Made by a program: the position numbers and the translations under genes. Below, piece after piece: positions 20,680-44,727 of a stretch of 50,366 nucleotides of DNA. The stretch covers positions 1-50,366 of the IMG/VR virus record IMGVR_UViG_3300011258_000154, one strand, 5' to 3'. The first letter of the stretch is position 1; the number at the start of each line of letters is the position of its first letter. The notes under the pieces were generated by a model, which did no database searches, was not told the DNA's origin, and worked only from the letters and a program-made list of their open reading frames with translations. Origin of the DNA: a virus.

Positions 20680-21186
20680 TTACTGGTCGGCAAACGCAGG
20701 TGCAGTTGCACCTGTAACAGTTCCAAAGATTTGATAGTTTGTGGAATCTTTACCAATAATTGTAACATCAAACCCAGCAGGAACATTTAATTGAATACTG
20801 CTATTTGAGTTACCATCAGAAAATACTGCGCTCACTTCATTATCAGTGTCTAAAAATGTTACTCCACCAACATAAAAATTAGTATTGCCTGGTGTGACAA
20901 TTATTGCATCTGTTGCATCAGCCGCACCACCTGCATAAACAAATCTAAAAACAGACCCAGCAATTGGTGCTGGTAATGTATAGGTGTTGTCTTGACCACC
21001 ATCTGGAACAAGCAAAACTCTTCCACTGTGAGTGGCGTTGGTTAAGGTTACGTTACCATCTGAAAGACTTACAGGGCCATCACCGATTGTAGTAACCTCT
21101 GTAATTGTTCCAGTAGTAGCATTTTTACTTATAGTTTTAAGGGTAGTTTCAGACCGGATTGGCCCTGAAAATGTTGTATTAGCCAT
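20680..21186 (-). CDS. Putative capsid decoration protein
   Basis: The 168-aa product is almost entirely beta-like and Thr/Val/Gly-rich (TTFSGPIRSETTLKTISKNATTGTITEVTT, HSGRVLLVPDGGQDNTYTLPAPIAGSVFRFVYAGG, GFDVTIIGKDSTNYQIFGTVTG). It is the first gene after the major capsid gene and its terminator, which is a common place for head decoration or fibre proteins. No family name can be assigned with certainty. Confidence 0.6.
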   Translation of the reverse strand: MANTTFSGPIRSETTLKTISKNATTGTITEVTTIGDGPVSLSDGNVTLTNATHSGRVLLVPDGGQDNTYTLPAPIAGSVFRFVYAGGAADATDAIIVTPGNTNFYVGGVTFLDTDNEVSAVFSDGNSNSSIQLNVPAGFDVTIIGKDSTNYQIFGTVTGATAPAFADQ

Positions 21187-21242
21187 GTTTATCTCCTTAT
21201 CTTGGCAAACGTCAGCCGCACCATGCGACTGTTAAGGAATGA

Positions 21243-24977: not shown

Positions 24978-25200
24978 ACACCTAACTCCTATGAATTACA
25001 ATTGTCACGTCATTTTGAACGTATGATTTACTATAGTCGTAAATCATACGCTTCATACACCTTTTGACCCCCGTATGAAATATGTATGAAAAGCGTATGA
25101 AAACGTATGAAATATATTACATTTAGTACTTGTAATTGCTTGTGTCTGCTATTATATGTTATGTATAGAGAGAAAAAACGAATCACTAGGGAGAAACAAA
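24978..25200. promoter_or_regulatory. Divergent control region with GTATGAAA iterons and a 12-bp inverted repeat
   Basis: This 223-bp gap separates leftward late genes from rightward early genes. GTATGAAA starts at 25073, 25084, 25095 and 25105 (spacings 11, 11 and 10 bp, about one helical turn). Reverse copies (ATCATAC, TTCATAC) lie at 25043 and 25052, and one variant lies at 25021. Positions 25020-25031 and 25039-25050 form a perfect 12-bp inverted repeat (CGTATGATTTAC) with a 7-bp centre containing TATAG. The right part holds promoter A. Helical phasing suggests cooperative protein binding, as in an iteron origin or operator. Confidence 0.7.
25129..25168 (+). promoter_or_regulatory. Promoter A of the repeated early promoter family
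   Basis: The sequence CTTGTAATTGCTTG ... TGCTATTATATG has a TTGTAA -35 box at 25130-25135. It has an extended -10-like TGCTATTAT at 25147-25155, or TATATG at a 17-bp spacing. The same block is found at 27773-27813 and, on the minus strand, near 40450-40495 and 42028-42072. Confidence 0.6.
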
Positions 25201-25578
25201 ATGGAAGATTATCAAAGAAAATTTTTAATGAATTACATACCATCTTATATTCTTTTAGATGAACTAACCAAAAAAATTAATCACCTTTGTGAGGGTGATG
25301 ATACGACTTTGGATATGATAAAGCCACTTCAAGCAAAAGAAATGGAATTGTATCGTGCTGTGGGCCAACAACGGAGAGATGCAGAAGAAAATGTAATAAA
25401 ATTTACTGAGATGTTTGATGAAAATGCCGTCGATATTGTTCGTATAAACGCTTACCATACATTTCGTGAACATGTAGGGCCATGCGAAGATTTTGACGAT
25501 CACATGGTAGAAGCATTTATAAATGCAATAATAAACAAAAGCGAAGATCATTGTAGAGATCTTTACAATCACGTTTGA
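25201..25578 (+). CDS. Early hypothetical protein (125 aa)
   Basis: I start at ATG 25201 because the invariant leader CTAGGGAGAAACAAA precedes it. The product is hydrophilic and mostly helical (MEDYQRKFLMNYIPSYILLDEL, then NHLCEGDDTTLDMIKPLQAKEMELYRAVGQQRRDAEENVIKF), with an aromatic/acidic C-terminal part. It is the first gene of the rightward early island, behind promoter A. No family is recognised. Early phage proteins of this size often interfere with host functions. Confidence 0.7.
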   Translation: MEDYQRKFLMNYIPSYILLDELTKKINHLCEGDDTTLDMIKPLQAKEMELYRAVGQQRRDAEENVIKFTEMFDENAVDIVRINAYHTFREHVGPCEDFDDHMVEAFINAIINKSEDHCRDLYNHV

Positions 25579-25593
25579 AAGAGGAGAAACATA

Positions 25594-25848
25594 ATGGAAC
25601 ATTTTAAATACAACCAAAAAATCCGAGCTTATGACTACAAGCCATCAGAAGGATTTGAGAAGTTTATTGAAGGTGCAGTTATTTATAGTGGCATGATTAA
25701 ACATCCAAAATATAACATCGATATGTATGAGGGTTACATTATTCAGGTTACAAACGCTGATGATGAAAATGATCCGCGCATTGGTGACATTGCCTATGTT
25801 CCTTTTGAATCAAGTTTTGATTGGGAAGATCGTATTACCGCAATTTAA
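25594..25848 (+). CDS. Early hypothetical protein (84 aa)
   Basis: The 84-aa product begins MEHFKYNQKIRAYDYKPSEGFEKFIEGAVIYSGMIKHPKYNIDMYEGYIIQVTNADDEN and ends with VPFESSFDWEDRITAI. The alternation suggests a small beta-barrel or SH3-like fold. The leader is GAGGAGAAACATA, a variant of the shared early leader. The gene follows the previous one by 15 bp and ends before a GGGGAGC hairpin. The function is unknown. Confidence 0.65.
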   Translation: MEHFKYNQKIRAYDYKPSEGFEKFIEGAVIYSGMIKHPKYNIDMYEGYIIQVTNADDENDPRIGDIAYVPFESSFDWEDRITAI

Positions 25849-25854
25849 TTAAAA

Positions 25855-25893
25855 GGGGAGCAAAAGCTCCCCACAATCCAAGGGAGAAACAAA
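25855..25893 (+). promoter_or_regulatory. Hairpin-leader element H1
   Basis: GGGGAGC (25855-25861), a 4-base AAAA loop and GCTCCCC (25866-25872) form a perfect 7-bp stem. It is followed by ACAATCCAAGGGAGAAACAAA and then the ATG at 25894. The same module occurs at 27107, 27509 and, on the other strand, at 41609-41571. The hairpin may insulate the ribosome-binding site from upstream translation or act as an RNA-processing or pause site. Confidence 0.7.
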
Positions 25894-26169
25894 ATGAAAA
25901 AAATCGTAAATGAAATTGCAACTCTGAAGGCTCAGATTGCAGAATTGTCAAAAGACTTAAAAGCTAAAGAGTCTGTATTAAAGGCAATCGGTTCTGGAAC
26001 ATACGAGGGTAGTGAACACTACGTTGTCGTTTCAGAGGCAACTCGTAAAACTCTAGATATGAAAGCTGTTAGAGCAAAATTATCTAGGCAGTTCATTCAG
26101 GCAAATACGAATGAGACTGATTACCTTACTCTTAAAATTTTTGGGTATGGTAAAAAGATAGCCGCTTAA
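25894..26169 (+). CDS. Coiled-coil early protein (91 aa)
   Basis: The 91-aa product has an N-terminal coiled coil (KKIVNEIATLKAQIAELSKDLKAKESVLKAIG) followed by a compact region (SEHYVVVSEATRKTLDMKAVRAKLSRQFIQANTNE). The coil plus a small basic domain recalls short host-takeover or nuclease-inhibiting proteins of phages such as Gam-type fragments, but the match is not strong. It sits behind hairpin-leader H1 and before the terminator-like E element. Confidence 0.65.
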   Translation: MKKIVNEIATLKAQIAELSKDLKAKESVLKAIGSGTYEGSEHYVVVSEATRKTLDMKAVRAKLSRQFIQANTNETDYLTLKIFGYGKKIAA

Positions 26170-26173
26170 CAAT

Positions 26174-26215
26174 GCTTGACACTACTAGTTATTGCTAGTA
26201 GTGTCTTCATATTAA
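26174..26215 (+). terminator. Hairpin E: terminator with promoter-like bases
   Basis: GACACTACTAG (26178-26188) and CTAGTAGTGTC (26195-26205) form an 11-bp perfect stem with a 6-base loop, followed by TTCATATT. As a plus-strand structure it can end transcription of the upstream genes. The same bases begin CTTGACA...CTAGT.ATTGCTA, which matches 15 of 20 bases after the -35 box of promoter D. It may combine a stop and a start function. Confidence 0.5.
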
Positions 26216-26237
26216 CGAATCACTAGGGAGAAACAAA

Positions 26238-27098
26238 ATGGCGAAATTGGCAAATCAAGAAGTGGTTAAAGAATTAACCGAAAAAGCAATTATCAGCATC
26301 GAAGATGCTATTTCAAAGGGTCTAAGTTGGAAGCCTGAATTTAAAGGCACTGGTGGACTTGCGTATAATATGTTTACTGGCAATGTCCTAAGTGGCGGCA
26401 ATCAGTTGATTGCACTACTTTCTGGAGTTGACACTCGGTGGGCAACACCGAAAGCCCTCAAAGCTAAAGGCGTAGCTTGGGCGAAGGGATCGAAGACGAC
26501 TACGTTCTTATTCCCAATCACAATCACCAAAGATAGTAAAACTGGTGAAAAGCTAGAAAATCCGTTTATGTATTTCAAAACGTACCGAATGATTAATGGT
26601 GCGGATATTGTCGATTTACCTCAAGAAAAGTCTGATGAAGTCACTCTAGAAGAGAGACACACCAAGATCGATGAGCTTGTAGCTGTACTTGGGGCAGATG
26701 TCCGTGAGAGCAGTAGAGGTCAGTGTTTTTATAACTATAGAGATGACTACATCCACATGCCGTTTAAGAAGTATTTTGATTCTATCGATAGTTATTACTC
26801 TACTTTATTTCACGAGATCGGTCATTTTACTGGCCATAAGAGCCGCTTAAATAGGCTTGGTAAACAAGATAAATCTGAATACGCTTTCGAAGAGCTAGTG
26901 GCTGAGTTGTTCAGCATCTACGCCTGTAAGTTTTTTGATATATCTTTTGAGCCTACAGAAAATAATGCCACTTACTTATCAAGTTGGCTCAAGGCTCTAA
27001 AGCAAGATGCTTCATTCTTATGGAAGGCATCAAGTCGGGCAACAGACATATTAAACTATGTCTTGCAAGCCCAAGAAGAGCTTAAAAAAGCCGCTTAA
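26238..27098 (+). CDS. ardC: ArdC-like antirestriction protein with zincin domain
   Basis: The 286-aa protein has an N-terminal ssDNA-binding domain typical of ArdC (TEKAIISIEDAISKGLSWKPEFKGTGGLAYNMFTGNVLSGGNQL, residues about 14-57). It also has a C-terminal zincin-like metallopeptidase domain with HEIGH at 192-196 (zinc ligands H192, H196; catalytic E193) and EELVAEL near residue 219 for the third ligand. ArdC proteins bind single-stranded DNA and protect incoming plasmid or phage DNA from restriction. This suits an early gene. It has its own leader (CACTAGGGAGAAACAAA) and a hairpin upstream. Length is close to usual ArdC (about 290-300 aa). Confidence 0.85.
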   Translation: MAKLANQEVVKELTEKAIISIEDAISKGLSWKPEFKGTGGLAYNMFTGNVLSGGNQLIALLSGVDTRWATPKALKAKGVAWAKGSKTTTFLFPITITKDSKTGEKLENPFMYFKTYRMINGADIVDLPQEKSDEVTLEERHTKIDELVAVLGADVRESSRGQCFYNYRDDYIHMPFKKYFDSIDSYYSTLFHEIGHFTGHKSRLNRLGKQDKSEYAFEELVAELFSIYACKFFDISFEPTENNATYLSSWLKALKQDASFLWKASSRATDILNYVLQAQEELKKAA

Positions 27099-27106
27099 AT
27101 TTAACA

Positions 27107-27145
27107 GGGGAGCCTTGCGCTCCCCACAATCCAAGGGAGAAATAA
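27107..27145 (+). promoter_or_regulatory. Hairpin-leader element H2
   Basis: GGGGAGC (27107-27113), a CTTGC loop and GCTCCCC (27119-27125) form the stem, then ACAATCCAAGGGAGAAATAA precedes ATG 27146. This is the same module as H1, and it lies directly after the ardC stop. Confidence 0.7.
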
Positions 27146-27304
27146 ATGTTGGATGATACTAAACCACCTCTGGGTTCTCGCATCAGGTCTATGATACTGG
27201 TCTACGATGCCTTCGGGGAAACCTACACCGATGCAGATAAGAAATTTGCATTAAAAATTATGGCTAACTTACTAAAGGAGGTAGTCGGTGATGACGTTGT
27301 CTGA
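27146..27304 (+). CDS. Small early protein (52 aa)
   Basis: The frame has an AAGGGAGAAATAA leader, starts at ATG 27146 and ends at TGA 27302-27304. The 52-aa product (MLDDTKPPLGSRIRSMIL...) is helical with an acidic Asp-rich end. It overlaps the next gene by 14 bases, which points to translational coupling. No function is recognised. Confidence 0.55.
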   Translation: MLDDTKPPLGSRIRSMILVYDAFGETYTDADKKFALKIMANLLKEVVGDDVV

Positions 27305-27446
27305 GTTAAGAGATTGGCTAGAGGTTCAAATAGAGCGGCATGAAAGGATGCTCGAAACCTCTAAAGATGCTCATGCAATTAAAGATTCAATGGCCAAGTT
27401 GGTGGCTTATAAACGAACTTTGGTTAGATCTAAGGGAGGTGAATAA
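27291..27446 (+). CDS. Small helical early protein (51 aa)
   Basis: ATG 27291 follows an AAGGAGGTAGTCGGTG ribosome-binding site located inside the preceding gene. The 51-aa product (MTLSELRDWLEVQIERHERM...) is one long amphipathic helix, rich in Arg/Lys/Glu, with coiled-coil character. It is the second of three coupled small genes. The function is unknown. Confidence 0.6.
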   Translation: MTLSELRDWLEVQIERHERMLETSKDAHAIKDSMAKLVAYKRTLVRSKGGE

Positions 27447-27447
27447 A

Positions 27448-27501
27448 ATGGAGTTTAGTTTATTAGGGTTTTTAATCCTTTTAATTATAACCAATCTTTA
27501 A
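27448..27501 (+). CDS. Possible 17-aa hydrophobic peptide
   Basis: A strong ribosome-binding site (AAGGGAGGTGAATAAA) leads into ATG 27448, which encodes MEFSLLGFLILLIITNL and stops at TAA 27501. Nearly the whole peptide is hydrophobic and would span a membrane. It is very short, but the good leader and the intergenic place before hairpin H3 support it. It could be a leader peptide or a membrane-active peptide. Confidence 0.4.
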   Translation: MEFSLLGFLILLIITNL

Positions 27502-27508
27502 TTAATCA

Positions 27509-27546
27509 GGGGAGCCTCGCGCTCCCCACAATCGTTTGGAGAAATA
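27509..27546 (+). promoter_or_regulatory. Hairpin-leader element H3
   Basis: GGGGAGC (27509-27515), loop CTCGC, GCTCCCC (27521-27527), then ACAATCGTTTGGAGAAATA before ATG 27547. The bases TTAATTAATCAGGGGAGC before and in the stem also occur in H4 (minus strand, 41617-41600 region). Confidence 0.7.
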
Positions 27547-27768
27547 ATGACTACTTGGAGATATAAGAATATAGATAAAATGCCCCAATGGGTAAAAGAA
27601 CAGTCGAGCATTCGTGAAGGACTTGAGCATATTATTTTTATGCATACAATGGAGGGCGAAAAACCTGCCGTTGTAGGGGATTATATCTACATGGATTCAA
27701 GAGGCCATGTGCATGTATATAAAGAAAATCCAAAGAAAAGTTTGTTTTTTAAGATATTTAATCGATAA
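27547..27768 (+). CDS. Early hypothetical protein (73 aa)
   Basis: The 73-aa product reads MTTWRYKNIDKMPQWVKEQSSIREGLEHIIFMHTMEGEKPAVVGDYIYMDSRGHVHVYKENPKKSLF and ends FKIFNR. It starts with GTTTGGAGAAATA. The pattern suggests a small alpha/beta fold with a His-containing motif (GHVHVYKE). It lies between hairpin H3 and promoter B. No family is known to me. Confidence 0.65.
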   Translation: MTTWRYKNIDKMPQWVKEQSSIREGLEHIIFMHTMEGEKPAVVGDYIYMDSRGHVHVYKENPKKSLFFKIFNR

Positions 27769-27772
27769 AGTA

Positions 27773-27813
27773 CTTGTAATTGCTCGTATTTGCTATTATA
27801 TATAATATATAAC
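27773..27813 (+). promoter_or_regulatory. Promoter B of the early promoter family
   Basis: TTGTAA at 27774-27779 is followed by ATTGCTCG and TGCTATTAT at 27791-27799. Together with the AGTACTTGTAATTGCT block, it is nearly identical to promoter A. It lies 18 bp before the leader of the gene at 27831. Confidence 0.6.
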
Positions 27814-27830
27814 CAAAAGGGAGAAAAAAA

Positions 27831-28391
27831 ATGGCATATGATGAAACATTAGGAAGTAAAGAGCGTTACTACGATGCAATCGATTATTATAGAATGGAAA
27901 ATGCACGAAAAGGCAAAATGAACAAATGGTTAAAAGATGTTCCTGATGCTCAAGAAATTCATGATTTTCTTATTGATAAAAATCATGGTTTTTTAGGTGA
28001 TCTTAACACTAGCATTTATAAGTATGGTAGCCTGACTGAAAATCAAACCAATGCTGTTCGTAAAATTATTGCTAACAATGTTAAACGCGCAGAGGCTCTA
28101 GAGGTAAAAAAAGCCGAAGAAGCTGAGGCAAGTGATTGGGTTGGCGTTGTAGGCGAACGTACTGAGTTCGACCTTACTGTTCAGCACGTTGCGACATTTG
28201 ATGGACATTACGGAACTGTTTACTTTAATATTTGTAAAGATGCAGATGACAACGTAGTTGTTTACAAAGGATCAAATGGTTGGGAAAAATCAACTAACGT
28301 AAAGTGTGTAGCAAAAATCAAAGAACACAGTGAGCGCGAAGGTGTAAAACAAACAATCATTCAGAGGCCAACAGTAAAGGAAGTAATATGA
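27831..28391 (+). CDS. Early hypothetical protein (186 aa)
   Basis: The 186-aa product has a helical N-terminal half (residues 1-90, YYDAIDYYRMENARKGKMNKWLKDV) with a Lys/Glu-rich coil (NNVKRAEALEVKKAEEAEAS), then a compact beta-like C-terminal domain (WVGVVGERTEFDLTVQHVATFDGHYGTVYFNICKDADDNVVVYKG). That pattern recalls small OB- or SH3-like nucleic-acid-binding domains, but the assignment is not certain. It is the first gene after promoter B and is coupled by ATGA to the next gene. Confidence 0.65.
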   Translation: MAYDETLGSKERYYDAIDYYRMENARKGKMNKWLKDVPDAQEIHDFLIDKNHGFLGDLNTSIYKYGSLTENQTNAVRKIIANNVKRAEALEVKKAEEAEASDWVGVVGERTEFDLTVQHVATFDGHYGTVYFNICKDADDNVVVYKGSNGWEKSTNVKCVAKIKEHSEREGVKQTIIQRPTVKEVI

Positions 28392-40290: not shown

Positions 40291-40434
40291 TTAAATTTTA
40301 TCTATTTCTATTATGTGATAATCTAAACTGAACATTGATTTAATTTTTTGTTTACTGTTAGCAAGAATTTTTAAATATGTGTAACTACCTTGAGTGTTAT
40401 TTTTTTCCAAAAGTATTACTAAAAATTTTTTCAT
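40291..40434 (-). CDS. Small early protein (47 aa)
   Basis: The frame starts at ATG 40434 after the invariant leader CAAGGGAGAAACAAA and ends at TAA 40291. It encodes MKKFLVILLEKNNTQGSYTY, then LKILANSKQKIKSMFSLDYHIIEIDKI, a small alpha/beta pattern with Lys-rich parts. It is in a one-gene unit flanked by promoter C and the terminator. This organisation (promoter, leader, one small gene, terminator) is convincing. No function is recognised. Confidence 0.7.
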   Translation of the reverse strand: MKKFLVILLEKNNTQGSYTYLKILANSKQKIKSMFSLDYHIIEIDKI

Positions 40435-40449
40435 TTTGTTTCTCCCTTG

Positions 40450-40495
40450 TTTCTATACATTATAGATAATAGCAATTACTAGCACTTTCAAGTGC
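40450..40495 (-). promoter_or_regulatory. Promoter C of the early promoter family
   Basis: On the minus strand CACTTGAAAGTGCTAGTAAT continues into TGCTATTAT (40466-40474). The -35 TTGAAA (40486-40491) lies inside the perfect 16-bp palindrome AGCACTTTCAAGTGCT (40481-40496), which could be an operator. The promoter overlaps the end of the upstream oxygenase gene. Confidence 0.6.
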
Positions 40496-41063
40496 TATTA
40501 ACTATTTTTTTAAATTCTTTTAATCTTTTTGTATTCAGTTCAATTACATTAAAATTAAATGACACGATTGTTTTTCTAATATCATTTTTTACCATAGGCG
40601 CACGGTGTGGTGTCATTGCAGGAAACATTACAACATCTCCTTCTGAAACTTCTGGTATTTTTAGCGAGTTATCCCACAACTCTGTAGGTGGAGCATTTAC
40701 AGGGTATTCCAAGTAATAAACACCTGTGTAATTTTCACTATGTACATGCCAACCGTGAATCGAATCTTTTAAATATTGTTGATACCAAATTGCTTTCAAC
40801 GCAATACCATTGTAGCCAATAAAGTGTGACATCTCAGCTAACTTATCAATCAGAGTAGGTAGTAATTGTTTCACCCAAGGTCTATCAAAATCTGAATGGT
40901 TTTCCCAATCTAGTTTAGATATGTTATTTTCTCCACCATCCTTAAAATCAAAAAGGTTTGGATCTTTTTCCTGATTTATTTTTTCTAATATTAATGGTTT
41001 ATAAAAATCATGTTCGGATAATCTATCACGGATATAATGATTTTGTATTGGCAATTTAAACAT
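40488..41063 (-). CDS. Putative 2OG-Fe(II) oxygenase
   Basis: I start at ATG 41063, after GGAAGGAAGCAACGTA. The 191-aa protein has the double-stranded beta-helix pattern: GWHVHSENYTGVYYLEYP (His106 and His108) and GDVVMFPAMTPHRAPMVKNDIRKTIVSFNF (distal His153, Arg163 for the 2-oxoglutarate carboxylate). These enzymes couple 2-oxoglutarate decarboxylation to substrate oxidation. In phages they may hydroxylate proteins or modify bases. It is distinct from the second oxygenase at 46509-47066. The acidic metal ligand is not certain. Confidence 0.75.
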   Translation of the reverse strand: MFKLPIQNHYIRDRLSEHDFYKPLILEKINQEKDPNLFDFKDGGENNISKLDWENHSDFDRPWVKQLLPTLIDKLAEMSHFIGYNGIALKAIWYQQYLKDSIHGWHVHSENYTGVYYLEYPVNAPPTELWDNSLKIPEVSEGDVVMFPAMTPHRAPMVKNDIRKTIVSFNFNVIELNTKRLKEFKKIVNST

Positions 41064-41081
41064 TACGTTGCTTCCTTCCAA

Positions 41082-41210
41082 TCATTTTTTAATGTAGAGC
41101 TGACCATTAAGGTAAGCCAGTTCAATCATGGTACGTTCAAGATCGGTTAATTTTTGACCTTTAAGTATTTTACACTCTTCAATAACTTCTTTTAATGTAT
41201 GTTTACTCAT
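41082..41210 (-). CDS. Small early protein (42 aa)
   Basis: ATG 41210 is preceded by a near-perfect AAAGGAGGGATT site. The 42-aa product (MSKHTLKEVIEECKILKGQK...) is helical with an amphipathic pattern. A longer in-frame start is unlikely because of that site. The function is unknown. Confidence 0.6.
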   Translation of the reverse strand: MSKHTLKEVIEECKILKGQKLTDLERTMIELAYLNGQLYIKK

Positions 41211-41220
41211 AATCCCTCCT

Positions 41221-41412
41221 TTATAATTTAATAAAATTAAGTGTACTTCCAAGTTCGTAATGAAAGTATTCATGCCCGACTTCTAGGCTCGACAAGGTAT
41301 CGATAACGTCGTCGGTAAGATCCCACGCATCAGATTCTTTGATTTCATCTAATGCAACAACCTCTGGCTTTGCATCTTCGTAACCTTCCAACCATTTCAC
41401 TAAGAATTTCAT
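41221..41412 (-). CDS. Small acidic early protein (63 aa)
   Basis: The 63-aa product (MKFLVKWLEGYEDAKPEVVALDEIKESDAWDLTDDVIDTLSSLEVGHEYFHYELGSTLNFIKL) is acidic with a KFLVKWLEGY start that resembles a beta strand. ATG 41412 overlaps the stop of the previous gene. It is part of a three-gene small cluster. No family is known. Confidence 0.6.
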   Translation of the reverse strand: MKFLVKWLEGYEDAKPEVVALDEIKESDAWDLTDDVIDTLSSLEVGHEYFHYELGSTLNFIKL

Positions 41413-41570
41413 TTCATATGCCTTTCCATTTGATTAAGGGTAAAAAGTAAATTCCACAATTTAGATTGCAGATAACTATTGTAGTCTGAATCACCCGACA
41501 ATCTTTCTGTTAATTCTACTATAAACTCTTTTTGTTCATTGAGCTTTTCTTTAGTGGTCATATTTTCCAT
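41409..41570 (-). CDS. Small helical early protein (53 aa)
   Basis: The frame starts at ATG 41570 after the shared leader CAAGGGAGAAACAAA and hairpin H4, and ends at TGA 41409, overlapping the next start. The 53-aa product (MENMTTKEKLNEQKEFIVELT...) is a helical, charged protein. It is the first gene of a cluster of three. The function is unknown. Confidence 0.65.
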   Translation of the reverse strand: MENMTTKEKLNEQKEFIVELTERLSGDSDYNSYLQSKLWNLLFTLNQMERHMK

Positions 41571-41609
41571 TTTGTTTCTCCCTTGATTGTGGGGAGCGCG
41601 AAGCTCCCC
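41571..41609 (-). promoter_or_regulatory. Hairpin-leader element H4
   Basis: On the minus strand GGGGAGC, loop TTCGC, GCTCCCC (stem 41591-41609), then ACAATCAAGGGAGAAACAAA and ATG 41570. It is the inverted-orientation copy of the H1-H3 elements. Confidence 0.75.
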
Positions 41610-41616
41610 TGATTAA

Positions 41617-42006
41617 TTAAAAATAAGATGCGATTGCTTCTGGAACATCTGATTCGTTTAAACGACCTGATGATAAAGTTAATGCGACTGGCGCAATCTC
41701 TTCAGCTTCAAAATCAACCCAAGCATTTGAACCATAACGTGGATCTGTTGATGACCAATGATCTGATGTTAAACCTTCAGAACCTTCTGTCTTAACAAGA
41801 TCAGATACACAATTAATAAAACGATCTGCACTATCTTTATCGTCTGAACCAAAAGTATCTAGCACCCAACGACGACCTGACGTAGCTTCAGCAAGCACTT
41901 GCCACACTGTAACATAATTAGGCCGACCATCTTCGTCACAACCGTTAGCTTCATAAACCCAATCTCTAGCATAAAAAACTAGACCTTTTGCTTTAGTGAT
42001 TTCCAT
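41617..42006 (-). CDS. Early hypothetical protein (129 aa)
   Basis: I start at ATG 42006 because the invariant leader CAAGGGAGAAACAAA precedes it. The 129-aa product begins MEITKAKGLVFYARDWVYEANGCDEDGRPNYVTVWQVLAEATSGRRWVLDTFGSDDKDSADRFINCVSDLV, with aromatic strands and a C-terminal acidic part (EEIAPVALTLSSGRLNESDVPEAIASYF). It could have an alpha/beta fold. It lies directly behind promoter D. No family is recognised. Confidence 0.7.
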   Translation of the reverse strand: MEITKAKGLVFYARDWVYEANGCDEDGRPNYVTVWQVLAEATSGRRWVLDTFGSDDKDSADRFINCVSDLVKTEGSEGLTSDHWSSTDPRYGSNAWVDFEAEEIAPVALTLSSGRLNESDVPEAIASYF

Positions 42007-42027
42007 TTTGTTTCTCCCTTGTTTGTT

Positions 42028-42072
42028 TCTATATATTACAGATAATAGCAATTACTAGCATTGTCAAGTGCT
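42028..42072 (-). promoter_or_regulatory. Promoter D, best copy of the early promoter family
   Basis: The minus-strand sequence CACTTGACAATGCTAGTAAT contains a perfect TTGACA (42062-42067) and continues into TGCTATTATCTGTAATATAT (TGCTATTAT at 42042-42050). The upstream terminator ends only 5 bp away. It should drive the 129-aa gene and those after it. Confidence 0.65.
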
Positions 42073-42076
42073 GAAC

Positions 42077-42114
42077 AAAAAAAAAGACCCCCAACTCAAT
42101 TTGAGTCAGGGGTC
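42077..42114 (-). terminator. Strong intrinsic terminator T2
   Basis: On the minus strand GACCCC-TG-ACTCAA-A-TTGAGT-TG-GGGGTC, followed by nine T, forms a long hairpin. It ends transcription after 42173 and lies directly before promoter D. The T-run and stem are close to ideal. Confidence 0.92.
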
Positions 42115-42173
42115 AGTCACCCCCTAAGTTTTGGGAGAAACAAGCGTCATAGAGGCGACCAGACGCAGGGGGT
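42115..42173 (-). ncRNA. Candidate structured small RNA with anti-leader loop
   Basis: Between the stop of the 84-aa gene and terminator T2 lies a short region that can fold on the minus strand as a three-way junction: outer stem ACCCCC/GGGGGT (42168-42173 with 42119-42124), arm GCGTC/GACGC (42144-42148 with 42162-42166), and arm GTTT/AAAC (42128-42131 with 42138-42141). The latter carries a CTCCCA loop. TTGTTTCTCCC is an 11-base perfect complement of the GGGAGAAACAA leader of at least six early genes. I infer a 3'-UTR-derived antisense RNA; expression is not shown. A decayed leader copy is the alternative. Confidence 0.4.
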
Positions 42174-42427
42174 TAACTCACTTGATGGGCAAGGCATAAA
42201 TATGCGGCTCCATCCGTACTTGAATCTTTGCTTGGTTTATACGCTAATCTGCTAATTTTTAAAAGCGTCATCATTACACAGGCATCGTGTGGTGTTATTT
42301 CTACATCAAGGTATGCGCTCCACAGTTTCGCCAGTCTCTTAAAACTTTCTTCGGGTGGGCCGTATGAACTCTGACGATCTTCATCCACCAACTTCTGCGC
42401 TTCCTTTAATAATTCACTTGCCTTCAT
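42173..42427 (-). CDS. DUF6378-like protein (84 aa)
   Basis: I start at ATG 42427, after AAGAGGAAAAGAA. The 84-aa protein matches the phage family DUF6378: a KASELLKEAQKLVDEDRQSSYGPPEESFKRLAKLWSAYLD stretch, then DVEITPHDACVMMTLLKISRLAYKP and DGAAYLCLAHQ. This family is widespread in phages and adjacent to nucleotide-metabolism or replication genes. The fold may be related to all-alpha NTP pyrophosphatases such as MazG, but that is not certain. The start overlaps the previous gene by ATGA. Confidence 0.75.
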   Translation of the reverse strand: MKASELLKEAQKLVDEDRQSSYGPPEESFKRLAKLWSAYLDVEITPHDACVMMTLLKISRLAYKPSKDSSTDGAAYLCLAHQVS

Positions 42428-42630
42428 TTTCTTTTCCTCTTGTAGTAATCGTCTGGTAGGTGAGCGGCACAGAACCACATTCCAAATTGATTATCCATTA
42501 ATGAAACATCCAAACCGAAGGATGCATCAGTGTCGCCACACACTGAACAGGGATGCCAAAAGATCCTCGACCCTTCTGTACCTTTGACCTTCCTAAAGCG
42601 TGGCCTAATATCTGTCGTCTTACTTCCCAT
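42424..42630 (-). CDS. Small zinc-finger-like protein (68 aa)
   Basis: The 68-aa product has HPCSVCGDTDASFGLDVSLMDNQFGMWFCAAH, giving a CxxC pair (Cys28 and Cys31) plus a Cys-x-x-His pair (Cys54 and His57), probably a zinc site. The ends are basic. It is the first gene downstream of the iteron region and is coupled by ATGA to the next gene. A regulatory or nucleic-acid-binding role is plausible. Confidence 0.65.
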   Translation of the reverse strand: MGSKTTDIRPRFRKVKGTEGSRIFWHPCSVCGDTDASFGLDVSLMDNQFGMWFCAAHLPDDYYKRKRK

Positions 42631-42794
42631 ATAATCCTCTTTTTTCGGTTCCCGTATGAAATAGGAATTATACTATATATAATTCCTATTCCTACGCCTC
42701 GTATGAACTAGCGTAGGAAAAGCGTATGAAACGTATGAAACGCATTCGTAAGTCATTGTTTTTATTACATTCGTGTTTTCATACGTTTTCATAC
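42631..42794. promoter_or_regulatory. Candidate replication origin with iterons and a 12-bp inverted repeat
   Basis: GTATGAAA copies start at 42654, 42724 and 42733, with near copies at 42701 (GTATGAAC) and 42713 (GTAGGAAA). Reverse copies TTTCATAC lie at 42777 and 42787. Positions 42661-42672 and 42678-42689 form a perfect 12-bp inverted repeat (ATAGGAATTATA) with a CTATA centre, very AT-rich. The region lies just downstream of the primase-helicase gene and overlaps its last six bases. The same iteron occurs at 25.0 kb. Confidence 0.65.
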
Positions 42795-44654
42795 TTTGCC
42801 CTCTTTCGATAACAGCCAGATTTGACCTTGGTTCATACAGATAAAATCACCTGAAATCATAGCCTCCAAAGTCTGCTTCCACGCGCTTCTATGGTTCGAT
42901 CCAGTGAACTTCCCAGTGAAGTGTTCACGCACATCTTCCTCCTGAATGACCCAGTAAGTATGCGGCTCTGGCCACCCAGTTCCTGCTGGGTTTGGTTGCC
43001 CAACTTTATCTGACTTGAGTTGATTAAAGCACTCCAAGAACAGCCTCTGGTTCTTACCTTTGGGTTGCTTCTTCTTCGCATCCTCCAGTTCCTCAGCGTC
43101 AACCTTCTGAATGATCACAGTCGTAATGTCATCGCCATCTGGATCAACACCAAGAACTGAGACGTTCAGCCTGAATGAGTATGCCGCACCACCCTCTAAA
43201 TCTCTTTGCTTCGTGCAGAGTGCTGTTCTGATACCACTCTCATTCTGAACGTCCAGTTCTATCTCAGTGTCGAGTGCCGCCTTCAATGCACTCGAACCAC
43301 GCGCTCCCTTAGCGGCATCTTTGCCTGTATGATGCACTATCATAAGGTGAGCGTTCGAGATGTTCCTGAGTATATCACAGTTCTTTATGAATTGCGACAT
43401 ATCTTCCGATGTATTTTCATTAGCCCCTGCCATTGCTCTGGACAGTGTATCCACAACAATCAGGGCAATCTCGCCCTTCTCATTGCGAATCTCATTGCAT
43501 AAGTTCTCCAAGGTGGGCAGATCAACGTCACTGTTAAACATATCGACAGGACTTGGCCTGACGGCTAACAGTGCGTTCTCATCTCCGTAATGCTCTTTCA
43601 GGGCGTAAACTCTATTCCTGAAGCTATTGCCACCCTCTGTGGCCATGTACAGCACAACACCCTCGACAACTTTGTTTCCGTTCCACTCTCTGCCAGTGGC
43701 AATGTGCCAAGACATATCTAGGGCTAGGAAAGACTTACCAGTGTTGGAGGCTCCGTAAAGACAGCTCAGTTGATTTGCACCGAGCCAGTTCTTTATCAGG
43801 TAATTGTTTGTGAGGATTGGCTCTGCATCGTCAGCCCAGAATACACTATCCTGAAATCTTCTTGGCGTTAGAAACTTCTGCACAACTTCTGCACCTCGCG
43901 CAACCCACAGATCATTGTAATCCATATTCTTCGGTGGGAGCATGTAGGTCGTGCCGTGATCTTCCTTCGCCTTCTCAGCTCCCTTGATCCCTGCCTCATC
44001 ATTATCGGCACACACAATAAACTCTGCGTGTGGCTTGGCGATCTTCAGGGATTTAATAACTTCCGTAATGTTGTTGGCGTTTAACGCAAACACGGCAGGC
44101 TTGCCTGTGGCCTCACTGATAGACGCGGCAGTCGCCCAACCTTCAGCAATATACGCCAAGTCTGTAATCGTTCCACCAAGGACGCTGAAGTTACCAACGA
44201 CTGGCATGGCCTTCGAGAACTTCTTGTTTCCCTCAGAACTAATCGTCTGAGTTCCGACCTTCTTTCCCATGTGATTGTTAATTGGAATGACGAGGTTACC
44301 ACCATCGATCAGTGCGTTATGCTGTGCGATCTTCTTCTTGGCCAAGTAAGGATGTTGAGTTGAGACACTCGGCCACTCTATTTCCTTAGTGGTAAAACCG
44401 TTTTCCCTCTCTGGCCACAATCCCTGTGAACGTAAAATATTCGTAATCTCCTTGAAGTCATTGCACTGTCTGCACTGAACCTTCACATCTCCGTTATACT
44501 CATTAATCCAGAACCTATCCTTGCCACCGCAATTTGGACACGCCCCATGATACTCTCCCTGTGTAACCTGCTTCAAGTTTAAACTCTGAACGATCGTACT
44601 CGACCACTCTGACCAACGCGCTGATTTGTATTTTCCTTTACTATCGTCTATCAT
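42789..44654 (-). CDS. TOPRIM primase with RepA-like helicase
   Basis: I start at ATG 44654, after GAGGCGG. The 621-aa protein has a CPNCGGKDRF...CRQC zinc finger (Cys39, 42, 61, 64), a TOPRIM domain (YIAEGWATA with Glu171; CADNDEAG with Asp217/219), and a C-terminal RepA-type RecA-fold ATPase with Walker A YGASNTGKS (about residues 300-308) and Walker B LIVVDT (Asp402). It makes RNA primers and unwinds DNA at the fork. The C-terminus is a winged-helix-like domain. It is the central replication gene here; no DNA polymerase is seen. Confidence 0.93.
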   Translation of the reverse strand: MIDDSKGKYKSARWSEWSSTIVQSLNLKQVTQGEYHGACPNCGGKDRFWINEYNGDVKVQCRQCNDFKEITNILRSQGLWPERENGFTTKEIEWPSVSTQHPYLAKKKIAQHNALIDGGNLVIPINNHMGKKVGTQTISSEGNKKFSKAMPVVGNFSVLGGTITDLAYIAEGWATAASISEATGKPAVFALNANNITEVIKSLKIAKPHAEFIVCADNDEAGIKGAEKAKEDHGTTYMLPPKNMDYNDLWVARGAEVVQKFLTPRRFQDSVFWADDAEPILTNNYLIKNWLGANQLSCLYGASNTGKSFLALDMSWHIATGREWNGNKVVEGVVLYMATEGGNSFRNRVYALKEHYGDENALLAVRPSPVDMFNSDVDLPTLENLCNEIRNEKGEIALIVVDTLSRAMAGANENTSEDMSQFIKNCDILRNISNAHLMIVHHTGKDAAKGARGSSALKAALDTEIELDVQNESGIRTALCTKQRDLEGGAAYSFRLNVSVLGVDPDGDDITTVIIQKVDAEELEDAKKKQPKGKNQRLFLECFNQLKSDKVGQPNPAGTGWPEPHTYWVIQEEDVREHFTGKFTGSNHRSAWKQTLEAMISGDFICMNQGQIWLLSKEGKV

Positions 44655-44670
44655 AATATTGCCGCCTCGC

Positions 44671-44727
44671 AAAAAAATGGTGGTGTTCAGCCCAGTAGAA
44701 AATCCTTTCCTCAGAACTGGGCTGAAC
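44671..44727 (-). terminator. Attenuator hairpin between ssb and primase genes
   Basis: An 11-bp perfect stem (GTTCAGCCCAG at 44685-44695 with CTGGGCTGAAC at 44717-44727) and 21-base loop lie after the SSB gene. On the minus strand the stem is followed by ACCACCA and then seven T. It may limit transcription into the primase gene; the 7-base gap before the T-run makes it weaker than T2. Confidence 0.55.

Follow-up and report, generated by a model that had tools for sequence, protein, structure and literature searches.

Gene context of the replication block

The window, i.e. the whole viral record of 50366 bases analyzed here, for which no close DNA relatives were found in the phage collection, carries on its minus strand, from its end down to position 42173, a series of genes that includes a replication block. 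This block, which is assumed to be a single transcript, encodes a SNF2-type helicase, an exonuclease, a Gp2.5-type ssDNA-binding protein, a primase-helicase and a DUF6378 protein. The primase-helicase (42789-44654, minus strand) combines AAA_25, Toprim and primase zinc ribbon domains and matches PHROG primase families. The mechanically called start of its reading frame, a TTG at 44672, falls on the base with which the leader hairpin described below begins, and the true start is likely to be the ATG at 44654 (minus strand). The DUF6378 gene (42173-42427, minus strand; Pfam DUF6378, E = 2.5e-26) has an alternative GTG start at 42478 on the same strand and bears at its 3' end the RNA element considered here. 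Two further gene clusters, at 25201-28391 on the plus strand and at 40291-42006 on the minus strand, appear from their gene content and their own promoters to be early, and one of their members, the gene at 26238 (plus strand), resembles an anti-restriction protein. Elsewhere in the window, Rfam family RF03012 (Mu-gpT-DE) matches 21184-21237 of the minus strand with 62.4 bits (cut-off 49), downstream of a Mu gpT-like major head gene; the phage CRP-901 also has such a match.

A three-way junction RNA followed by a terminator

The minus strand from 42077 to 42190 folds into a junction and a terminator with a free energy of -45.6 kcal/mol (z = -4.75), which none of 200 shuffled sequences equaled, thereby confirming the original prediction of a three-way junction with a strong terminator on this strand. 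The junction (42115-42178) is formed by an outer stem P1, within which the stop codon of DUF6378 falls, and two hairpins P2 and P3; the intrinsic terminator (42077-42114) comprises a 13-bp hairpin (42086-42114) and a T9 tail. All three stems contain G-U pairs, so that the pairing is possible on the minus strand alone. The loop of P3 (hereinafter L3) is the predicted CUCCCA at 42132-42137, closed by GUUU/AAAC. Together with the 5' strand of the weak P3 stem and two flanking bases, the CUCCC of this loop forms UUGUUUCUCCC (42133-42143, minus strand), which is perfectly complementary over 11 nt to the early leader described below. The loop of P2 (hereinafter L2; 42153-42158, minus strand) is UCGCCU, which is complementary to the ribosome site AGGCG of the primase gene. 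Four variants of the junction, when folded separately, attained the same shape with z between -4.5 and -6.3. The element lies between the DUF6378 stop codon and an intrinsic terminator, as in 3'UTR-derived small RNAs; no clear promoter for it was recognized at the locus, and no Rfam family matched at its site.

Conservation and compensatory changes in relatives

The element was recovered in 29 other IMG/VR contigs, which divide into 20 of clade 1, with three forms (c1a, the type of the window, c1b and c1c, the latter from contig L010), and nine of clade 2 (L065 and others), whose primase is 73-74% identical to that of the window over its full length. In every contig having both, the RNA comes just after DUF6378. 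The clade 2 element, UUAGCUCAGAGUGAUAUCAACCGCCUUAAUUUGAUAUCAUGUGUUUCUCCCUAAGACACUGAGCUGA, differs from the window in its stems, and nevertheless folds independently to the same junction with the loops CCGCCUUAAU and CUCCCUA. Since MAFFT misplaced the stems across clades, the helices were aligned by hand, which made about 14 pairs of P1 and P2 comparable between the two well-separated clades available. Both sides have changed with pairing kept in four of the six inner P1 pairs and six of the eight P2 pairs, i.e. in about 10 of 14, the stems thus compensating between the clades. Amid these rewritten stems GUUUCUCCC and CGCCU are fixed in all RNA-bearing relatives of both clades. The leader GGGAGAAAY is likewise retained in both, the clade 2 leaders being mostly GGGAGAAATA, in which the ninth pair with the loop therefore turns to G-U, and some c1b leaders having drifted to GGGAGATAU. 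Thus, the diverged clade presents the opposite of a loss of loop complementarity under a retained leader: it keeps both. Identity between the window and c1b amounts to 96.8% in the junction and 100% in the terminator, as against 65.9% for the third codon positions of DUF6378, which points to constraint on the non-coding stretch. Taken together, these observations make it almost certain that the conserved, structured RNA element is real.

Beyond these contigs, the leader set and the RNA were absent from the stretches read of the isolated Roseobacter phages CRP-901, CRP-902, CRP-8xx and CRP-406. Distant primase relatives yielded no convincing case in which a repeated leader was accompanied by an RNA complementary to it, and inspection by eye revealed no junction 3' of more distant DUF6378 genes. 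When bacterial and archaeal genomes were scanned with a loose pattern, 46 matches were obtained, which with seven odd viral matches make 53 places, none of which had the leader; two of these places passed a permissive filter for folding or poly-T and were rejected, as the junction was not shown there. The leader context GGGAGAAACAAAATG occurs once each in several phage contigs in which the RNA was not found, some of them partly read, implying that a phage can have the leader and lack the RNA. Among the close relatives L006-L022 the gene that comes first after the RNA and the promoter varies widely; small accessory genes are swapped at this position, with the type of leader being retained.

A repeated early leader complementary to the P3 loop

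The 11-mer GGGAGAAACAA occurs exactly seven times in the window: six copies lie directly 5' of AATG, and one, in reverse, is at 42133-42143. On the plus strand it precedes the genes at 25201 (25189-25199), 25894 (25882-25892) and 26238, the anti-restriction-like gene (26226-26236), and on the minus strand those at 42006 (42008-42018), 41570 (41572-41582) and 40434 (40436-40446), the context of the six ATG starts always being GGGAGAAACAAAATG. These exact occurrences verify the original prediction of a perfect 11-base complement at these six starts. The set is in fact larger than first listed, because the starts at 27146 and 27831 (plus strand) have leaders with one mismatch, GGGAGAAATAA (27135-27145; -16.3 kcal/mol) and GGGAGAAAAAA (27819-27829; -13.0 kcal/mol), respectively. 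When about 72 predicted gene starts were ranked by duplex energy with L3, the top ten, spanning -18.2 to -13.0 kcal/mol, fell within the clusters at 25201-28391 (plus strand) and 40291-42006 (minus strand), with the eleventh gene at -12.1 kcal/mol. Shuffled loops had as many strong targets in one of 1000 trials for both the window and clade 2, and in 45 of 1000 for c1b, where the count is only weakly significant. Cofolding of the RNA with its targets gave a modest net gain of about -4 to -6 kcal/mol, with unrelated genes ranking equally high; it is uninformative as a target ranking because loop-loop contacts are not modeled and the junction is allowed to unfold.

The regions around the leaders have further recurrent features. 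Intercistronic hairpins of the form GGGGAGC..GCTCCCC lie just 5' of leader genes at 25840-25880, 27100-27130, 27505-27530 and 41590-41620, and also in relatives. A 50-nt early promoter region is duplicated with 92% identity 5' of two leader genes (40447-40496 and 42023-42072), and regions of this kind precede leader genes in relatives. Two leaders are preceded by CGAATCACTAGGGAGA (25181-25199 and 26218-26236, plus strand), which is similar to T3/T7 RNA polymerase promoters around their start site, probably by coincidence.

The complementarity suggests that the RNA is antisense to the early leaders, and several other interpretations have to be weighed against this. The best placed of them, which we nonetheless consider unlikely, is that a structured 3'UTR merely stabilizes or terminates the mRNA of the replication operon, with the loops kept for protein binding or folding and the leader match being incidental. 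This would be consistent with the placement of the RNA, which has a stop codon on one side and a strong terminator on the other, and with the lack of an evident promoter of its own. It would leave unaccounted the fact that the loop held fixed amid changing stems exactly complements the leader that these same phages repeat most often. Moreover, complementarity of six gene starts to one 11-mer never arose when the RNA was shuffled 2000 times with its dinucleotide composition kept, and the seven starts observed with 9-nt complementarity were equaled in only seven of these shuffles.

More improbable still is an antisense RNA directed chiefly against host mRNAs, in which CUCCC is a general seed against ribosome sites, with the phage leaders serving as side targets or decoys. 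C-rich loops such as CUCCC are common in bacterial small RNAs, and a resemblance to the alphaproteobacterial suhB/mmgR RNA (RF00519) covers UUUCUCCC, although at 17.5 bits it stays below the cut-off of 41. As against this, the complementarity of 9-11 nt goes past the generic core and picks one leader set among the phage gene starts, and that leader is retained in both clades.

The original prediction had itself raised the concern that the matching bases might be a decayed, inverted leader copy read on the plus strand, which would render the complementarity trivial. The plus strand is indeed identical to the leader, and that of clade 2 reads GGGAGAAACACATG, so that an origin by inversion is possible. 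Decay is nonetheless strongly disfavored, since the motif is kept while the surrounding stems are rewritten, which is the opposite of decay; furthermore, there is no reading frame of note 3' of the motif, the G-U pairs would be lost on the plus strand, and the T tail of the terminator is on the minus strand. Equally remote is the notion that GGGAGAAACAA is a protein-bound DNA operator, with 42133-42143 as one more copy: several copies do lie close behind early-type promoters, but they lie at a constant distance from the start codon rather than from promoters, several others come after intercistronic hairpins instead, and an operator has no reason to occupy a hairpin loop with compensating stems.

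The second loop and the primase leader

All RNA-bearing contigs inspected, like the window, have AGGCGGCAA as the ribosome site of the primase gene, while this sequence is found 5' of the primase in none of 31 more distant primase relatives (about 53% identity or less, without a recognizable RNA). In the window the site is presented in the loop of a leader hairpin, UUGC-GAGGCG-GCAA (44659-44672, minus strand). Folding of this site in five variants gave a small hairpin in each, with the loop AGGCG (AGGC in one), and this exposure would allow a loop-loop contact with L2, which is UCGCCU in the window and CCGCCUUAAU in clade 2. Ranking of targets for L2 places the primase as the best or tied-best in 10 of 11 contigs, and as the best in the window. 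Shuffled loops reached the observed energy on the primase in 9, 39 and 0 of 1000 trials, and on any gene in 55, 218 and 27 of 1000, for the window, c1b and clade 2, respectively; these results are not independent across clades, because the clades share ancestry. The predicted L2-primase pairing is thus moderately significant, and we regard the primase as a plausible second target of the RNA, though short of a probable one. The original prediction recognized one anti-leader loop correctly and missed both CGCCU, the other loop that does not vary, and the primase leader as its candidate target. In four contigs (L009, L010, L065 and L067) a long hairpin lies 30-50 nt 5' of the primase start; its stems are rewritten between the clades and its loop UUGGAGAG, from which the loop of the window differs, is kept. 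This loop could pair weakly with L3.

A potential timing and feedback mechanism

The window ends at the helicase start codon, and the leader of the helicase is known from sister contigs only: in L078 and L085, CCAAGGGAGAAACAAAATG stands behind an early-type promoter as the leader of the helicase that heads the replication block. A circular genome, which might have revealed the corresponding leader of the window, was considered and rejected, as the opposite end of the window is not compatible with it. If the helicase leader holds, the RNA would end an operon whose first gene and primase are both its predicted targets.

From the above sequence comparisons, we consider it probable that the RNA is a 3'UTR-derived antisense to the early leaders that blocks early translation and exerts feedback on the replication operon. 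The minus-strand 3'UTR of the operon, running from helicase to DUF6378, would terminate in a folded RNA about 100 nt long, comprising the 64-nt three-way junction and the terminator, which is probably processed from the operon transcript or might start from an unrecognized promoter. In infected cells, the CUCCCA of L3 would then pair with the ribosome site GGGAGAAAY of the early and accessory genes and thereby repress their translation, while L2, through CGCCU, may make a loop-loop contact with AGGCG in the ribosome site of the primase-helicase of its own operon. Transcription of the operon would in this manner lower the output of the genes that have the leader, among them the first gene of the operon in the sister phages, and cap the synthesis of primase, the combined outcome being a timing and feedback switch.

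The fuller proposal, that this is a two-headed phage antisense RNA of a new class in marine phages, with L3 serving the early regulon and L2 a kissing contact with the primase, is more tentative and rather less likely than not to hold. If true, the transcription of the replication operon would itself time the switch from early functions to replication, and a part of phage timing would be accomplished by RNA alone. The repeated leader would make many early genes a single regulon of a small RNA from the replication operon. This provides a directly testable prediction for environmental phages without a known regulator, and repeated leaders in other phages may similarly have matching RNAs.

Comparison with known phage antisense RNAs

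In its likely action the RNA is most reminiscent of the c4 antisense RNA of P1 and P7. The latter is described as a three-stemmed RNA cut from a longer transcript, whose loop b' is directed at the ribosome site and loop a' at a sequence upstream of it (Citron and Schuster 1990, via PMC5320573 and PMC12197685). Both are compact, phage-encoded three-stem RNAs with loop antisense sequences that cover ribosome sites of phage mRNAs, and the processing from a longer transcript that is known for c4 is proposed here. In c4, both loops act on one target, ant, the RNA lies upstream of ant, is processed by RNase P and has a role in immunity; here, in contrast, one loop would address many genes via a shared leader and the other a different gene, and the RNA lies in a 3'UTR, 3' of DUF6378. 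The c4 family (RF01695) had no match at the gathering threshold in the window, L064, L098 or L078, and none at the RNA locus up to E = 10. The RNA is, by both covariance model and target layout, not a member of c4.

The antisense RNAs sar of P22, with the target ant, and OOP of lambda, with the target cII, also limit the translation or stability of phage mRNAs (PMC12197685); each is reported with a single phage target, whereas here short complementarity in trans extends to many genes. The phage trans-acting small RNAs VpdS and PreS are closer in another respect, as the known phage examples, which are Hfq-dependent with largely host targets (PMC12197685, PMC13250501), share with the present RNA and other 3'UTR-derived small RNAs a position at an mRNA 3' end, an intrinsic terminator and short seed pairing in trans, which for the present RNA is predicted. 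Like the 3'UTR-derived forms, the RNA has a conserved seed complementary to the ribosome sites of its targets; unlike VpdS and PreS, it is predicted to act on early and primase genes of the phage itself. The original prediction of a new sort of phage switch is therefore to be narrowed: blocking of ribosome sites by phage antisense RNAs is already exemplified by c4 and sar (PMC12197685), and the new element is the predicted targeting of many genes via a shared leader.
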